This document shows, piece after piece, positions 2,841-20,193 of a DNA stretch of 21,219 nt. The first letter of the stretch is position 1; each line of letters starts with the position of its first letter. The position numbers were made by a program, and so were the translations under genes. Location: positions 1 through 21,219 of IMG/VR virus record IMGVR_UViG_3300027777_000181. One strand, given 5' to 3'. This stretch comes from a virus. The notes beneath the pieces were generated by a model. That model was not told the origin of the DNA, did no database searches, and saw nothing but the letters and a program-made list of their open reading frames with translations.

Positions 2841-3748
2841 TACCCCATAAATCCAAAGTCTTTGAGCACTGTCGTAGCAACACTTGCTGCCTGTTGACGT
2901 GCATTATTTGTGTATTGCCAACGTGGATCTTGGCGTAGTTCTTTTTCAAAATCGTAGATTGACTTGGTTCCAACCTTGCCATCTGGAGTTGTAAACGCCA
3001 TAGCACTACGAATCTTAGGGTCAAACAAATCAATACCAGTATCTGGTATCTCAAGGATATTGCTCATTGACTGGATATATGGGTCAGCCAAAGTCTTAAG
3101 ATTGATACCTTGTTTAATCTTTTCGCCTAGTGCTGGGAATGCGTTAGCCGCTGATTCTCGAATAGTATTATATGCAGTATTATCATCAATAACCCCAGAT
3201 GCAATATCTGTAGCATATTTCTGTGCTGTTGCATCTGAAAGATTTAATCCATTATCTGCTGCAAGATTTTTAATTGCTACAAAGTATTTACCTGCTGGAC
3301 CTTCTGGAATACCAAGTTTATTAATTACCTGCTTACCAGACTCAAGTTGACCTTGAACTTTGCTATCAAGCCAAGTCTTAGGGTCAGTTCCTTCTGCAGT
3401 AAGGTACTCAGTATTAACAAGATTGCCAGCCTTATAAGTTCTTTTGACTGTGCTTTTTGTTTGACCAGATTTAGAAGTATATTGCTTCTTAAGCTCTGGG
3501 AGTAATGAAGCCAATTCAGTCTGGCTTGCATTTCTGCCATAGTACTTTTGGAATACTGAGTCTGCATAACCTTGAAGAGCTTCATCATTTGGGATGCGGC
3601 TAGATGTCTCGGTACTGGTATAGGTACCAGACTTAAGAGGCTTTGTGCTAGTACTGGGACCAGCAGGTGTGGCATTTTTACGTGCAGCATCTGCTTGTTC
3701 CTTAGTCATAAGATCAGCAGCTACCAGTGAATCATAAAGGTCAGCCAT
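2840..3748 (-). CDS. Putative virion-associated protein (middle member of a coupled trio)
   Basis: A 302-residue protein that I do not recognise. It has an N-terminal helix (MADLYDSLVAADLMTKEQAD), a Ser/Thr/Lys-rich linker (about residues 25-55), then a mainly helical globular region with FQKYYGRNASQTEL near residue 70, a form seen in the repeated helical segments of large phage structural proteins. The C-terminal segment has EKELRQDPRWQYTNNARQQA. The ATG overlaps the stop of the 1536-aa gene (TAATG). Its own TAA overlaps the ATG of the 421-aa gene. The chain of one-base overlaps argues for co-translation and for membership of one virion sub-complex. Function beyond that is not known. Confidence 0.6.
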   Translation of the reverse strand: MADLYDSLVAADLMTKEQADAARKNATPAGPSTSTKPLKSGTYTSTETSSRIPNDEALQGYADSVFQKYYGRNASQTELASLLPELKKQYTSKSGQTKSTVKRTYKAGNLVNTEYLTAEGTDPKTWLDSKVQGQLESGKQVINKLGIPEGPAGKYFVAIKNLAADNGLNLSDATAQKYATDIASGVIDDNTAYNTIRESAANAFPALGEKIKQGINLKTLADPYIQSMSNILEIPDTGIDLFDPKIRSAMAFTTPDGKVGTKSIYDFEKELRQDPRWQYTNNARQQAASVATTVLKDFGFMG

Positions 3749-6700
3749 TATTTAGTACCCTTCTTGGTTACTACTGGAGTAAGGTATTTATCAACAATGA
3801 GATCTTGTGATAAGAACCTATCGTAAAGATATGAAAACCCAATAGGGTCATCCTTTTTTAACTTAGCAACAACAGCATCATAAGCATAACGCAAATCAGT
3901 ATTTGATTTTGCATCTATAGATTTTGCTTGGCGTTGTTCTAATTCTTTTGCAAATGCTTGGCGTACATCAAGATAAGTAGATACAGATTTCCACATTGGA
4001 TTATTCTTATGGTCATCAATAAACTTTGAATCCATAATTTTTCCAAGTCCAACAATCACTTTGTTAGTCTTTGAACCATCTGAATCTAGGTAATCGTCAT
4101 ACCAGGCAGTCTGAACATATTGTCCAGTTTTTTTATCAAAGACTGGCTTTCCTTCAGAATCTGTTTGTACAGATAATTTAGAAACTACTGCTTCTTTGAC
4201 TGCCTTAAGATCTTCTGCACCCTTTTGCTGTACTGAAGTTAATCCACGATTTTTAAGTTCTGCATCAAGAATTGTGTTCAACTTGTTATATTGAATCCAG
4301 CCTTTATTTGCTTCATTCTTACGCTGCGCTTCAGCAGGGCTTTGAGATGAAAGGAATTTGGTAGGGGCATCAGGTGAGATTCTCTTGTTGTAAAGGTAAT
4401 CGTAAGATGCTTGAGAAAATTCATATCCCTTTGGGTCATTGACTACAAGACCAATAAGTTTAGGATCAACATTTACTAACTCGCTAATAAGCGAACCATA
4501 CTTCTTTACATTTTGTACAGCATTTACTGAATACTGTACAGAAGTAGGGTTGCTTGAAAGGCTTGCTGAGAATTCAAAGAAATCTGGATAGTCCTGCAAG
4601 AACTTAGCGTCTGCTTCAAGGCCATATACTCGCTTATATTCACGAGACTTATCAAGATAATATTTATATGGGCTATCAAAGCGTGGGGCAAATGGCATAA
4701 GCAAGTTTGCTGCTGTACGCATATTCCAGTAATCCTTGGTCATATCAAGAATTTTTCCAGCTTTAACTGGAGGCTCACCATTGCGCTTAGCCTTCATCTG
4801 TTCTGTGTTCCAGATTAGTTGGTAACTTCTAGCAAACTGTGGGTCATTAAGACCAGCTTGTTTGACCTGTTGCTTTTGAACCCAAGAAGGCAAGAACCCT
4901 GAAATAGCATTTTTTGATGGACCATAAGGTAGCGCCCACTTAAAAGCATCTTCAAGATTTGGTTGATTCTTTACAATCTCAGATACTGGAACACCAATAT
5001 ATGGACCTATTGGAAAGATATCGCTAAATACATTTGGATTTCCTTTATTGTAAAGTACATCCATACCACCTTGAAATATGATATCCAAAGATTGCTTTGG
5101 TATACCCATTTGAGTTAGTGAACCAAGACCAGGTAGTTTTTGAATACCCTTAGGAACTCCAACCCAAATAACATCGCTGCCACTTGTTTGACCTGGTGGA
5201 ACAATCTTTCCATCTTGATCTGTAACAAGCCCTGCTTTATTAGGAGCCTGCCATACCATATAGCCACGATTAACAATCTGTGGGTTAGCAATCGCTAACT
5301 TACTCCAAGTCTTGTAAGCGTTCTCTTGTGCAGAGAAGAATGGGCTGATGTACTTCATTGCTGCAGCAAGGTTGCTACGGCGTTCGATATTAAAAAGAAT
5401 TTCTTTCATCTGACGCTGTGCTACTTTGTGAGCAATACCCATAATTGCTTCTTGGTCTGCTACAGAAAACTTATCTCCAAGTTGTTCAGCCATAATGTTG
5501 ACACGACGTTCAGCTTCCTTGCGGTATAACTGGATATATAGCGGGTTACGCGCCCAAGTGTCTTCTGGAAGGGTTCCTAAGAAGTGGAAAAGTGTATTAA
5601 TAATCTCTCGACCTTTAATCTGAGAGGTATTAAAAAGGCTTTCCTCAAGCAAGTGACCGTGAATTACTGGTAACTCTGTTGGGTCAGTAAATGCAGAACG
5701 CAAATCTGCAGCAGTAATATCTTTAATTTTACTGCGTAGCCCAGAAGTTTCCGGTAGATACTGGTCTAGGAATCCATTAATCTTTGTAACATACTCATCT
5801 GCTTCAGAAGATGGAATGCTCAAACGACGGCGAAGGTCACGACCTTCTGGTGAATTACGAAGCCACTTAATAGTATCTTCAATAGGCTCACCGCTAATAA
5901 TTTTATTTACAACTCTTGAGTTACCAAATTGTTGACGAAGTGTTTGCGCCCACTGGTCAAAGTATGCAGGATCTGTAGGGCGAATCTGCTGGATTCCCTT
6001 AGATGTAAGCATACGTGAATACATATCAGTATTACTATCAACCATACGCTCAAATGAATTACCAGATGAGGCAATTTTGCGGAACATATCACTAAGTGGC
6101 CCACCAAAGGCATCGTGCAAAACATACTTTTTGCCATCAGAAGTTGTTACTTCAAATGACCCAGTACCGATACGCTGCTTTTCGGTCTTTCCCTTATGGC
6201 GATTAAGCACATCCGAGTAATGCTTATAGACTGCTTGCTTTTCTTCTTGAAGAAGTTTTTCGGTATTAAGTTTACCAGCTAAGTCAACATCATCTGGATT
6301 CAAAGATAGCTTTGCTTCTGTTTCAGCAATTTGTGATTTCAAATCTGTAAGTTCACGAATTACGGAAGTATGTGATTGTTGAACTTCTCTAATTGTCATA
6401 TTAGAATCTACTGGCAAATACCTGTCAATAAGGCGAGCAGGAACTGCAATAGAGTTATTAAGAATATTCTTAAGACCAGGACCAAGATGGCGAAGAGTTG
6501 TCATAGCGCCAACAGATGCTGCAATACGAAGCTGTGAATCAATAGCGTTACGCTGTGTGTATCCAAGGCGAAGCAGTGCTCCTGCCTTGAAAGCATCTTG
6601 AAGGATATCTACATAATGTAAAGTTGTATCAACTGCTCTTCCACCAAGTGCATTAAGAGCACTTTTGTTTTGCTTAAGCAACTTATTTATTAATGGGAAA

Positions 6701-8358
6701 TCCATAATAGGAAGATAATCAGCAGACTGTGATTCCAGTTGTGGCACCTTTAAGATTGACCCATCGTAGTCAACCATAAAGCCTTTATCTTTAACTGAAC
6801 GAAGTGCAGATGTTCGAGCACCTACATAATTATTATAAAGATTTTCAGCAAGTTTTTCATCAGTAATTCCGTGCTTAGCCATAATTGTACGAAGAGCAGC
6901 GCCCTCCATAATCATAGTTGCTGTATATCGTTCTTCTGGCGTTGCTGCCTTGATATAACTATCAAGCATAGAACGGCTTTGCTCTGGAGTAAGATTGACT
7001 AACTTCTCAAGCTGATTAATTGTTGCAACAACTTCTTTGTAAGAATCTGGATCATTAAAATCTACAAGGCCAGCTGGACGCTCTCCCGCAGCCCAAGAAA
7101 TCTTTTGATAAAGGCGATGAAAAGGTGTTGGCTGAAATACTTCAACTGATGGAGTTCCAACTGCTTTATCGTAGAACTTAATAGCACGTGACTGCGCTAC
7201 AAAATCTTCTGCCTTTTGAGCAAGTTTTCCAGTAGTGCGTGTAAGCGTTCCGCCACCTTCACCAATTTGCATTAACTTTGCAAAGTACTGGTCTTGCTGA
7301 GCAAGGGCTGCATAGTTTGCTTTAGCAGATTCTATAACAGCAGGTGTGTCATTAAGGAATGGAATCATTCCTGTTCCATCTGGTGCTGAGAATAACTTGT
7401 ATTCATCAACTGTAGATAGATCACCACGTGCTGCTTCAAGAGCATCTGTAATATCTATACGCTTTAAGCGAAGTTCATCCATAGCAGCAGGATCACCTAG
7501 TGCTGAACGAAGAATCTGTGCTGTCTCAGTATTATCTGCTGACTGACCTAGTAGGTGAGCAAGAAGTCCAGGTTGTGTAGATGACTTTACCATTGGGTGG
7601 TTAAGTGCATATACTGAATCATTTTTAGTAAAGTCATCAATTACTTTAGTAAAACGATTCTTTACACCATACTGCGCTCTAGTAATATCTTCAGCTGCTT
7701 TAGCAACAGCGTCAGCATTCTTAAGAGCACCTGTAACATACTCAGTTGCTTTAAGTCCTTTTGCAACCTTACCTCCGGCAAGAGTTACATCTCCAAAAAA
7801 TTGAAGGCCAAGATCTAATCCACCTGAAGCAACTTTTCCCCAAGCACTTTTCTTAAATGCTGCTTCACGCTCACGTGGGTCATAAATATTAAACTTTGGG
7901 TCATATGAGTTGCGTATATAACCAGCAACTGATTGTCCAAAAGAAATTGTCTGAGCGCCTTCGTAGGCTTTCTTCCACTCATTAGGGTCAAAGAAAGATG
8001 CTCGTCCGTGATCAACGTCGCCTTCTACAAGTGAAAATGTAGTTAAGGGTTCGCGGATGTATTGCTGGTTAATATTATTAATACGTTCAAGTGTTGGCTG
8101 AAGTCCTGGGACTTTCATAATAGCGCCACCAGCTGATGCGTATGGAGCGACTATGTTTGTTTCGTTCTTTGAGACAGCGCTTTTGATTGTATTAGAAAAT
8201 CCATTATATGCTTCAGCATCATTCCAAGGAGCTGTTCCTACATCCCAAGCAAATTGTGCTACACCTTTAGCAGACCCAAGAACTTGTCCACCAAACTTGG
8301 TAGCATCTTTTGCAACAGTTGAGGCTACATCACCGATTCTGTTCCAAATGCTACTCAC
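3748..8358 (-). CDS. Giant virion protein, probable internal or DNA-ejection protein
   Basis: At 1536 residues this is the largest protein in the window. The N-terminus (residues 10-45) is Gly/Ala/Val-rich and may be amphipathic. A long charged coiled-coil-like stretch lies at about residues 656-721. Near residue 1000 is YISPFFSAQENAYKTWSKLA followed by a Pro/Gly-rich hydrophobic segment (about 1030-1150), a pattern I associate with large internal proteins of short-tailed phages. No peptidoglycan hydrolase motif, collagen repeat or tape-measure-like repeat is visible. Start is GTG at 8358, overlapping the preceding TGA (GTGA); GGGA lies 7 bases upstream. Alternatives are a minor structural protein or polyvalent protein. 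Size, position between the portal region and capsid, and coupling with two smaller proteins support an ejection role by inference. Confidence 0.6.
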   Translation of the reverse strand: MSSIWNRIGDVASTVAKDATKFGGQVLGSAKGVAQFAWDVGTAPWNDAEAYNGFSNTIKSAVSKNETNIVAPYASAGGAIMKVPGLQPTLERINNINQQYIREPLTTFSLVEGDVDHGRASFFDPNEWKKAYEGAQTISFGQSVAGYIRNSYDPKFNIYDPREREAAFKKSAWGKVASGGLDLGLQFFGDVTLAGGKVAKGLKATEYVTGALKNADAVAKAAEDITRAQYGVKNRFTKVIDDFTKNDSVYALNHPMVKSSTQPGLLAHLLGQSADNTETAQILRSALGDPAAMDELRLKRIDITDALEAARGDLSTVDEYKLFSAPDGTGMIPFLNDTPAVIESAKANYAALAQQDQYFAKLMQIGEGGGTLTRTTGKLAQKAEDFVAQSRAIKFYDKAVGTPSVEVFQPTPFHRLYQKISWAAGERPAGLVDFNDPDSYKEVVATINQLEKLVNLTPEQSRSMLDSYIKAATPEERYTATMIMEGAALRTIMAKHGITDEKLAENLYNNYVGARTSALRSVKDKGFMVDYDGSILKVPQLESQSADYLPIMDFPLINKLLKQNKSALNALGGRAVDTTLHYVDILQDAFKAGALLRLGYTQRNAIDSQLRIAASVGAMTTLRHLGPGLKNILNNSIAVPARLIDRYLPVDSNMTIREVQQSHTSVIRELTDLKSQIAETEAKLSLNPDDVDLAGKLNTEKLLQEEKQAVYKHYSDVLNRHKGKTEKQRIGTGSFEVTTSDGKKYVLHDAFGGPLSDMFRKIASSGNSFERMVDSNTDMYSRMLTSKGIQQIRPTDPAYFDQWAQTLRQQFGNSRVVNKIISGEPIEDTIKWLRNSPEGRDLRRRLSIPSSEADEYVTKINGFLDQYLPETSGLRSKIKDITAADLRSAFTDPTELPVIHGHLLEESLFNTSQIKGREIINTLFHFLGTLPEDTWARNPLYIQLYRKEAERRVNIMAEQLGDKFSVADQEAIMGIAHKVAQRQMKEILFNIERRSNLAAAMKYISPFFSAQENAYKTWSKLAIANPQIVNRGYMVWQAPNKAGLVTDQDGKIVPPGQTSGSDVIWVGVPKGIQKLPGLGSLTQMGIPKQSLDIIFQGGMDVLYNKGNPNVFSDIFPIGPYIGVPVSEIVKNQPNLEDAFKWALPYGPSKNAISGFLPSWVQKQQVKQAGLNDPQFARSYQLIWNTEQMKAKRNGEPPVKAGKILDMTKDYWNMRTAANLLMPFAPRFDSPYKYYLDKSREYKRVYGLEADAKFLQDYPDFFEFSASLSSNPTSVQYSVNAVQNVKKYGSLISELVNVDPKLIGLVVNDPKGYEFSQASYDYLYNKRISPDAPTKFLSSQSPAEAQRKNEANKGWIQYNKLNTILDAELKNRGLTSVQQKGAEDLKAVKEAVVSKLSVQTDSEGKPVFDKKTGQYVQTAWYDDYLDSDGSKTNKVIVGLGKIMDSKFIDDHKNNPMWKSVSTYLDVRQAFAKELEQRQAKSIDAKSNTDLRYAYDAVVAKLKKDDPIGFSYLYDRFLSQDLIVDKYLTPVVTKKGTK

Positions 8359-14814: not shown

Positions 14815-14838
14815 CGCGCACCGCTTAGGCGGTGCGCG
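14815..14838 (+). terminator. Strong 10-bp hairpin between the membrane-protein gene and the clamp-like gene
   Basis: CGCGCACCGC and GCGGTGCGCG form a perfect 10-bp stem with the loop TTAG. It is followed by a second hairpin, TCTGCA-ACTA-TGCAGA (14843-14858), and then the ribosome site of the clamp-like gene. No T-run follows, so a plain intrinsic terminator is doubtful. It may act as an attenuator, RNA-processing site or mRNA stabiliser. Confidence 0.45.
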
Positions 14839-14881
14839 GTGGTCTGCAACTATGCAGAATCTATGAAAAGAGGATAAGAAT

Positions 14882-15493
14882 ATGGAAACTATGCAATCAA
14901 CCGATACGGCCAGCGCTACCGCGCAGCTAGGCGACATCCTGGAGCTATTGGAGGGCGTCTCGACGCACGCGGATAAGCGCAAAGATTACCTGCCGGTGCT
15001 TAACGCGGTGCGAATCTATAGCGAGGGCGGCCATCTATTCGCAGCTGCAACCGATAGATACCGCCTAATAAGCGGGCGAATCGAGGCCGATACGATTCTC
15101 GATCTTGAAAAGGGGCTTGTGCCCCTGGCCGATATCAAGCGAATCACCGCACTATTAAAAGGTGAGGGCGCCCGTATGGATAGTCTGCCCGTTACCTTTT
15201 CCCGTGTTGCGAATATGCTCACCGTATCGGTGCGCGGTAATGCCGTCACCGTCGAGCTATTAGCGGGGAATTTTCCCCCTATCGGATATCTATTAAAAGA
15301 TGAATTCCAGGTGCATCCCCTGGAGATGGTAACTATTAACCCCGCATTTATGGCCGATTACGCAAAGATTGCGGGTAAAGGTGAGCCTGTATCGGTTACT
15401 TTTACGGGCGCAGGTAAGCCGTTGCGCATCGCCATCGCAGGCAACCGCGTATCCTGGCGGGCGCTCTTGATGCCTATGCGCGATAAGCGATAA
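14882..15493 (+). CDS. Truncated beta sliding-clamp-like protein (about one and a half domains)
   Basis: A 203-residue relative of the bacterial DNA polymerase III beta clamp (DnaN), which is normally about 370 residues in three domains. Residues about 16-140 align by eye with domain 2: LPVLNAVRIYSEGGHLFAAA, then ATDRYRL (56-62) and LLAGNFPPIGYLL (126-138). Residues 148-200 align with the second half of domain 3: TINPAFMADY and ALLMPMR. Domain 1 and the first half of domain 3 are absent. These are the parts that form the dimer interface. Residues equivalent to the clamp-binding-peptide pocket remain (T57, R61, L62, P132, N153, M197, R200). It has a GAAAAGAGGATAAGAAT leader and is followed by two hairpins. 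It may be a minimal clamp or a decoy that binds clamp-binding peptides; a mis-trimmed start is unlikely because the reading frame has a good ribosome site. Confidence 0.75.
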   Translation: METMQSTDTASATAQLGDILELLEGVSTHADKRKDYLPVLNAVRIYSEGGHLFAAATDRYRLISGRIEADTILDLEKGLVPLADIKRITALLKGEGARMDSLPVTFSRVANMLTVSVRGNAVTVELLAGNFPPIGYLLKDEFQVHPLEMVTINPAFMADYAKIAGKGEPVSVTFTGAGKPLRIAIAGNRVSWRALLMPMRDKR

Positions 15494-15519
15494 GCCCTAA
15501 TCGGTGCGTTATCTATCCT

Positions 15520-15540
15520 CCCCTGGCCTGGCGCCAGGGG
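15520..15540 (+). terminator. Hairpin 3' of the clamp-like gene
   Basis: CCCCTGGC and GCCAGGGG form a perfect 8-bp stem with loop CTGGC, 26 bases after the clamp-like stop. It is directly followed by another hairpin at 15548-15563. No T-run follows either stem. The pair probably reduces read-through or protects the message end. Confidence 0.45.
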
Positions 15541-15547
15541 CGGGTGG

Positions 15548-19184: not shown

Positions 19185-19564
19185 AGTTTTACTGCCTCCT
19201 CTATATCCAAGTACCCGACTATCTTATCTATCTTATTAGTGTTCTCAAACTCTGTAGTTGCTGGCATAGGTTGGGTGAACCACTCTGGTTCATCTAAGTC
19301 TGTAAGATCGAACGAGTAAATACCAAGCGGTGTGCTGTTGATATAGAAGGGCAACAGGTCGCGGTGGTAGGCTTGCTCAATCAGTTTGCGATACTTATTT
19401 TGCTGTATAAGTAGCGTAGAATAATGGGTTTGGCGACACTTCAGTTCAATGAAGTGACCGGCCTTGGCACTGTGGCAGTCGAAGGCATCATAGATTCCAG
19501 GAGCACGCTGTAAGTCTGGGTAAAGATTAAGTTTAAGAAAATCAAAGAGTACTAACTCGTTCAC
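19181..19564 (-). CDS. PD-(D/E)XK-like nuclease or resolvase-like protein
   Basis: A 127-residue protein. The central GIYDAFDC then GHFIELKCR gives D26/D29 and E40-x-K42, the spacing of a PD-(D/E)XK active site. QNKYRKLIEQA follows as a helix. This pattern resembles a family of small phage proteins that I think are nuclease-like. The start is GTG, overlapping the preceding TGA by four bases (GTGA), and the ribosome site is weak (GGTGG). It lies in the same operon as a sigma-like factor, HNH endonuclease and primase-like gene, which fits a role in DNA processing. Specificity is unknown. Confidence 0.6.
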   Translation of the reverse strand: MNELVLFDFLKLNLYPDLQRAPGIYDAFDCHSAKAGHFIELKCRQTHYSTLLIQQNKYRKLIEQAYHRDLLPFYINSTPLGIYSFDLTDLDEPEWFTQPMPATTEFENTNKIDKIVGYLDIEEAVKL

Positions 19565-20193
19565 TGGTAAGGACTCGGTCCACCAAGTTTCTCGTTCAGG
19601 TTACGCAAGGCTCGGTCACACCTGCGGTCTGCAGTTGAGTGGTGGACTTCTAGTATCACACCTATCTCTTCCAGCTTTAAGTTCTCGTGATAGCGCAGCA
19701 TAAGAATATGTTTATCTTCCTGCTCTAACTCTTCATAACACTTCTTAATATCAATGAGCATAGCAAGCAGGTTGCCACCTTCTGCTGGACTTGACGAGCC
19801 TTTAGGTTGACCATCTCTGATCATCTCCTGTGCTTGCTCTAGCACTGTGCCATCTAGCACTGATGCAATAACGAAGGGCAGTAGCTGTCCTAGTACACCA
19901 GTCTGATAGTAAGCCTCATCTGCAAGTTGATAACCAGACTTGATAGCCTTCTCCTTGCGTGCGTAGCGTTCTGCTACGCGCTTCATCTGCCACGCTATCT
20001 TCTGTTCGTTATGTCTGCGCTCAGTAGTATCTTCTACCTCTAACTGCTCGTTGATATAAGCGATACGAGTAAGCGCCCACTGTATGCACTCTTGTTTCAA
20101 ATCATCTCTGTCCACATACTTGTTGTACTGGTTATGTACAACGCGAGCAATACTGGGTACGATATCGTAGATAGCTGGGTTTAATTCAGTCAC
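19561..20193 (-). CDS. Sigma-70-like factor
   Basis: A 210-residue protein. Residues 27-44 (VDRDDLKQECIQWALTRI) resemble sigma region 2, with the DL.QE pattern. Residues 157-205 resemble region 4: LEQEDKHILMLRYHENLKLE, then EIGVILEVHHSTADRR and CDRALRNLNEKL, a helix-turn-helix for -35 recognition. The linker (about 60-150) is longer than in ECF factors and contains a low-complexity segment (PKGSSSPAEGG). GTG start with GGAAG 7 bases upstream, overlapping the Nmad1 gene by 8 bases. It may direct phage middle or late transcription, or be a sigma-like regulator that does not bind core. No consensus it might recognise was found. Confidence 0.72.
   Translation of the reverse strand: MTELNPAIYDIVPSIARVVHNQYNKYVDRDDLKQECIQWALTRIAYINEQLEVEDTTERRHNEQKIAWQMKRVAERYARKEKAIKSGYQLADEAYYQTGVLGQLLPFVIASVLDGTVLEQAQEMIRDGQPKGSSSPAEGGNLLAMLIDIKKCYEELEQEDKHILMLRYHENLKLEEIGVILEVHHSTADRRCDRALRNLNEKLGGPSPYQ

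Follow-up and report, generated by a model that had tools for sequence, protein, structure and literature searches.

The peptide-binding pocket of a sliding clamp is usually considered useful because the ring keeps the bound partner on DNA. In bacterial DnaN (the beta clamp), for example that of E. coli or Mycobacterium tuberculosis, which is about 366-400 residues long, the residues of this pocket and those of the dimer interface, I272/L273 included, have been published (PMC11139829); a monomeric mutant of the full beta retains DNA binding yet does not render Pol III processive (PMC11139829). PCNA and T4 gp45 are trimeric clamps whose subunits are shorter than that of beta and consist of two complete domains. 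The herpesvirus proteins UL42 and UL44 are PCNA-type two-domain proteins. They have been described as processivity factors, clamp relatives which bind a polymerase without forming a closed ring (PMC9690074).

In this work we have analysed a protein of 203 residues encoded on an IMG/VR virus contig of 21,219 bases, whose completeness is unassigned and the whole of which we call the window. The minus strand of the window carries genes for the major head protein, the portal and the large terminase. The protein, which we refer to as the mini-clamp, is a DnaN relative in which clamp domain 2 runs straight into the second half of domain 3. Its subunit is thus short, as in PCNA and gp45, but has one and a half domains instead of two and belongs to the beta lineage. 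The open reading frame starts with ATG and has no internal stops; its features are as follows.

14869-14874, plus strand: predicted ribosome-binding site AGAGGA, read from the sequence, 7 bases 5' of the ATG
14882-15493, plus strand: mini-clamp open reading frame, 203 residues plus stop, with a Pfam DNA_pol3_beta_2 match and relatives of the same length on viral contigs
14909-15271, plus strand: complete clamp domain 2, residues 10-130 (Pfam match at 31-132; order of strands and helices in the AlphaFold2 model, at a pLDDT of about 95; alignment to E. coli beginning at 125)
15050-15067, plus strand: pocket segment T57-L62, E. coli T172-L177 (T57 and R61 in 63/63 members, L62 in 59/63)
15275-15292, plus strand: pocket segment P132-L137, E. 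coli P242-V247 (P132 in 63/63, L137 in 60/63)
15317-15322, plus strand: junction at which the first half of domain 3 is missing (alignment gap between residues 146 and 148; the 52-residue segment is present in 0/62 relatives)
15320-15484, plus strand: second half of domain 3 of the clamp, residues 147-201 (PF02768 in 16/19 members; modelled as helix 154-164 plus three strands at a pLDDT of about 90)
15338-15340, plus strand: pocket residue N153, E. coli N320 (63/63 members)
15470-15481, plus strand: pocket MPMR, residues 197-200, E. coli M362-R365 (M, P and M in 63/63, R or K in 60/63)

Kinship with DnaN had been claimed in a sequence-only reading of this DNA, together with the loss of domain 1 and of the first half of domain 3, and both claims are borne out. 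The central beta-clamp domain of Pfam (DNA_pol3_beta_2, PF02767) matches residues 31-132 with an E-value of 1.2e-7 and 32.4 bits against a cut-off of 27, and it matches 19/19 family members (E up to 1). The third domain (DNA_pol3_beta_3, PF02768) gives a weak match in 16 of these 19, and the NCBIfam dnaN model (TIGR00663) matches all of them, the window protein scoring 33.4 bits, which is below the equivalog cut-off of 137.65. The top phmmer matches of the window protein are solved mycobacterial clamps (E 6e-6). The profile search which that reading had proposed as a check found the kinship with a probability of 99 and an E-value of 3.6e-17, in a global profile-profile alignment of 63 members against a DnaN profile made from 80 actinobacterial DnaN sequences and that of E. 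coli (81 clamps). With this 81-clamp profile hhalign also placed the C-terminal half, which was not placed with the single E. coli sequence. A single large stretch is missing from the query in this alignment, at about E. coli 262-313; it amounts to the first half of domain 3, with I272/L273 of the dimer interface in it. Domain 1 has no counterpart in the window protein, in which domain 2 and one half of domain 3 account for all 203 residues, and the N-terminal clamp domain (PF00712) had no above-cut-off match in 12 phage records. The mini-clamp is therefore a member of the beta-clamp superfamily by descent which shares domain 2, the second half of domain 3, the fold and the peptide pocket with bacterial DnaN, and departs from it in domain 1, the full domain 3, the equivalog score and the known dimer interface.

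Is this simply a normal clamp damaged by a frameshift or an assembly deletion? This alternative, raised in the same reading, is ruled out by the relatives of the same length which that reading had advised searching for in phages. Scanning viral contigs twice yielded 21 and 118 loci; the loci kept, once near-copies had been removed, amount to 62 distinct relatives, all 194-210 residues long, and further proteins of 185-215 residues with the mini-clamp fold are present in BFVD. Copies of the window family were not found in bacterial genomes; with REQ2, one of the isolated phages discussed below, as the query, all 80 bacterial loci kept have DnaN reading frames of at least 381 residues. A WhiB gene is carried by each of the 11 relatives on contigs of 34-41 kb, whereas among the control genomes it occurs in Corynebacterium only, and the hosts are therefore probably Actinomycetota. 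In the window record there is no WhiB match, and the record stops short of the place of that gene in the relatives.

Modelling of the monomer, another check suggested beforehand, gave a clamp fold. The AlphaFold2 model from 63 sequences has a pLDDT of 91 and a pTM of 0.88 (pLDDT 79 from 19 sequences) and superposes on E. coli beta 123-366 with a Z-score of 19.6 and 2.3 Å over 185 residues, as well as on mycobacterial clamps (25-27% identity); since AlphaFold was trained on many clamps, this fold is expected given the homology, and the arrangement is a single-chain prediction. The model contains three long helices of the clamp half-domain type, at residues 16-27, 82-93 and 154-164. Could three half-domains still be built into a ring? 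In PCNA four half-domains per subunit form a trimer and in beta six form a dimer, so that a mini-clamp with three would form a tetramer, each ring having 12. The mini-clamp could then be a true sliding clamp, closing a ring or arc by a new stoichiometry and replacing or competing with the host clamp on phage DNA, with two subunits contributing their orphaned half-domains, paired two-fold, to one rebuilt full domain. It would fit this explanation that exactly one half-domain was removed, that the model has no strand at residues 147-153, before the last helix, as though a partner sheet had been taken away, that conserved basic residues lie on two helices and that the relatives sit amid replication and recombination genes. 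However, the protein has neither of the elements known to form the dimer interface, which are domain 1 and, in domain 3, the part with I272/L273, and the DNA-binding tails of relatives would be needless on a topological ring. Overall we regard a ring or arc as doubtful, though a serious contender, and its more specific version, a four-subunit or otherwise unprecedented phage clamp with orphaned half-domains pairing across subunits, as distinctly unlikely. If the tetramer were true, a clamp of 12 half-domains would have a third solution beside the trimer of PCNA and the dimer of beta. The edge of domain 2 which faces domain 1 in full clamps is retained, and it might serve for contact with host DnaN, the mini-clamp inserting into or capping an open host clamp and re-targeting it to phage DNA. 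There is no sequence evidence of a host-clamp interface, and the half-domain 3 is without the dimer surface, so we consider such a hetero-oligomer very improbable.

By alignment, the partner-peptide pocket is the best-conserved feature of the mini-clamp family. The equivalents of the E. coli residues are T57 (T172), R61 (R176), L62 (L177), P132 (P242), L137 (V247), N153 (N320), M197 (M362) and R200 (R365), in agreement with the earlier proposal that the pocket positions are conserved or similar, and those of T172, R176, P242, N320, M362, P363 and M364 are invariant in 63/63 members. Invariant positions make up 8/15 of the pocket and 27/193 overall (hypergeometric p 2e-4), and a rank test likewise places the conservation of the pocket far above that of the remaining residues (p 3e-6); this p-value is a guide only, as the sequences share kinship. 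Equivalents of R152 and V344 are not kept in the aligned mini-clamps; V344 is not conserved among clamps either (PMC11139829). We conclude that the mini-clamp is a reduced beta-clamp derivative, probably retained for its partner-binding pocket.

What might a phage do with such a pocket? Three models are live, the ring discussed above, a decoy directed mainly at the clamp-loader delta subunit, and an adaptor on DNA. An intact pocket in a protein which has lost the ring parts would suit a soluble decoy that soaks up clamp-binding peptides, especially that of delta, and so blocks host replication or repair. The affinity of delta is about 50-fold higher for monomeric beta than for the dimer (PMC11139829), and overexpression of the full-length Waterfoul phage clamp has a toxic effect in M. 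smegmatis (PMC9339283). In the eleven relatives of 34-41 kb, however, we found no match to DNA polymerase families A, B and C (DNA_pol_A, DNA_pol_B, DNA_pol3_alpha), and for phages of this kind a block of host Pol III would be self-harming unless it were timed late. The full clamp is also absent from these eleven relatives, the DNA_pol3_beta matches being only two, below threshold and inside the mini-clamp gene. This suggests that the phages have neither a polymerase of these families nor a full clamp of their own, with the reservation that the contigs may be incomplete. The DNA-binding fusions and recombination-gene neighbours of the relatives described below also suggest action on DNA, and we consider a free decoy unlikely. 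Another toxic phage protein, Adephagia gp35 (L107:4360-5568), which has been called a sliding clamp and very toxic (PMC11373665), was rejected as clamp evidence; in Pfam it matches no clamp domain, and a metallophosphatase only weakly.

Genes for a DnaB-like ATPase and Toprim are carried by G001, which is the closest of the long relatives. Among the other proteins of four relatives, no clamp-binding motif was conserved in a replication protein. A QATLL sequence in a structural protein of 735 residues is probably a chance occurrence.

The reading that we tentatively prefer, with a little less than even confidence, is that the mini-clamp is a DNA-associated adaptor which, though not a classical ring, uses its clamp pocket to recruit clamp-binding enzymes of the host; it is a third possibility beside the monomeric decoy and the mini-ring put forward in the sequence-only reading. 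Host enzymes would dock in the pocket by their clamp-binding peptide, foremost DNA polymerase III alpha and perhaps also a Y-family polymerase or the clamp-loader delta, and the captured enzymes would be held near phage DNA without a ring loaded by the clamp loader, in the manner of UL42/UL44. The phage would in this way make use of the host polymerase. The likeness to UL42/UL44 concerns only the proposed mode of action: their partner is a viral polymerase, their clamp lineage is unrelated, and DNA binding by the mini-clamp is something that we infer. The non-processivity of monomeric beta means that a mini-clamp which is not a ring would need another way to help.

The 1.5-domain core also occurs in isolated phages of Rhodococcus, Mycobacterium and Gordonia, and probably in Arthrobacter phage Zaheer. 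REQ2 Orf51, Tortellini 57, Jace 60, Matteo 40, Horus 57 and Nyceirae 49 share this core and the family phrog_12598 with the window protein (its own match to that family has an E-value of 1e-16), but are only 20-30% identical to it and most of them are extended by a Lys/Arg-rich tail or by FtsK-gamma. In the Gordonia phages Hedwig, Nyceirae, Ewald and Bowser (L103, L104, L112 and L113) the core is followed by a C-terminal FtsK-gamma (E 4e-23 in Hedwig 56, 3e-19 in Nyceirae 49), a winged helix which binds DNA sequence-specifically (PMC8190038); the segments carrying it are acidic overall. The K/R-rich tail is C-terminal in REQ2, Tortellini and ten Tortellini-type copies (net charge of the Tortellini type +3 to +5) and N-terminal in Matteo and Horus. 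RecE-type and RusA genes lie near Tortellini 57, and BigNuz 51 and Xeno 51, in which the clamp part is weak, are sited between RecT and RusA. The repeated fusion of the core to DNA-binding parts, in some cases beside recombination genes, argues for a DNA-anchored recruiter over a free decoy. Our confidence in the adaptor is limited because the fused relatives are distant, and these relatives may have diverged in use, which would count against it.

Two side observations concern the appended parts. In REQ2 Orf51 (L023:5968-6768) the tail after residue 198 contains AQLWLDFL, resembling a hexameric clamp-binding motif, followed by a Lys/Ala/Pro-rich stretch; this motif could bind the protein's own pocket or the host clamp. 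Segments resembling FtsK-gamma also match inside RdgC or recombination-associated exonuclease genes of Vibrio and Pseudomonas phages.

It speaks against the adaptor that the window family is without appended DNA-binding parts and has a net charge near zero (median -2). If the adaptor reading is right, its tail-less proteins might be held on DNA through conserved basic residues, K86, R87, K93 and K162 (K or R in 63/63) and K166 (K or R in 98%), the placement of which comes from the sequence alignment only. Alternatively, they might associate with DNA as a self-dimer formed at the exposed half-domain. A large phage family with the ring parts discarded, the pocket strongly conserved and DNA-binding parts added in relatives would mean that pocket and ring are separable, and the mini-clamp would be a natural tool for recruiting or blocking Pol III. 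The actinophages which share the core can be cultured, and this makes the proposal testable.

The mini-clamp is not without precedent among deposited proteins. Databases already contain short relatives, under the names 'DNA polymerase III sliding clamp', 'FtsK-like' and 'RusA-like'; the FtsK-gamma fusions of the four Gordonia phages go by one or another of the names FtsK-like translocase, RusA-like resolvase and sliding clamp. Their 1.5-domain nature, however, has gone unremarked in the papers searched, which contain no description of a truncated phage clamp or of this architecture; many subscription papers lie outside that scope. The label 'RusA-like Holliday junction resolvase' is given to mini-clamps in phrog_12598, phrog_3007 and RefSeq phage records. 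The domain content does not bear this assignment out, as neither the window protein nor the RusA-named relatives have a Pfam RusA match and the model is a clamp; Tortellini, BigNuz and Xeno each have a RusA gene close by, from which the label may have passed to the mini-clamp. The name FtsK-like translocase is likewise unsupported, since the window protein has no FtsK match and the relatives have the gamma domain only, fused to the core. The present analysis, if true, would correct these misleading database names.

Scans for promoters and terminators gave no signal exceeding chance. The mini-clamp gene lies between two GC-rich inverted repeats, at 14818-14841 (GCACCGC..GCGGTGC) and 15519-15541 (CCCCTGG..CCAGGGG), with no T-run after them. 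Elsewhere in the window, on the minus strand, 3748-8358 encodes a protein of 1536 residues (phrog_10618, function unknown) which is kept in the relatives G001 and G006, and 19561-20193 encodes a Sigma-70 region 4 protein which is kept in 4/4 relatives compared.
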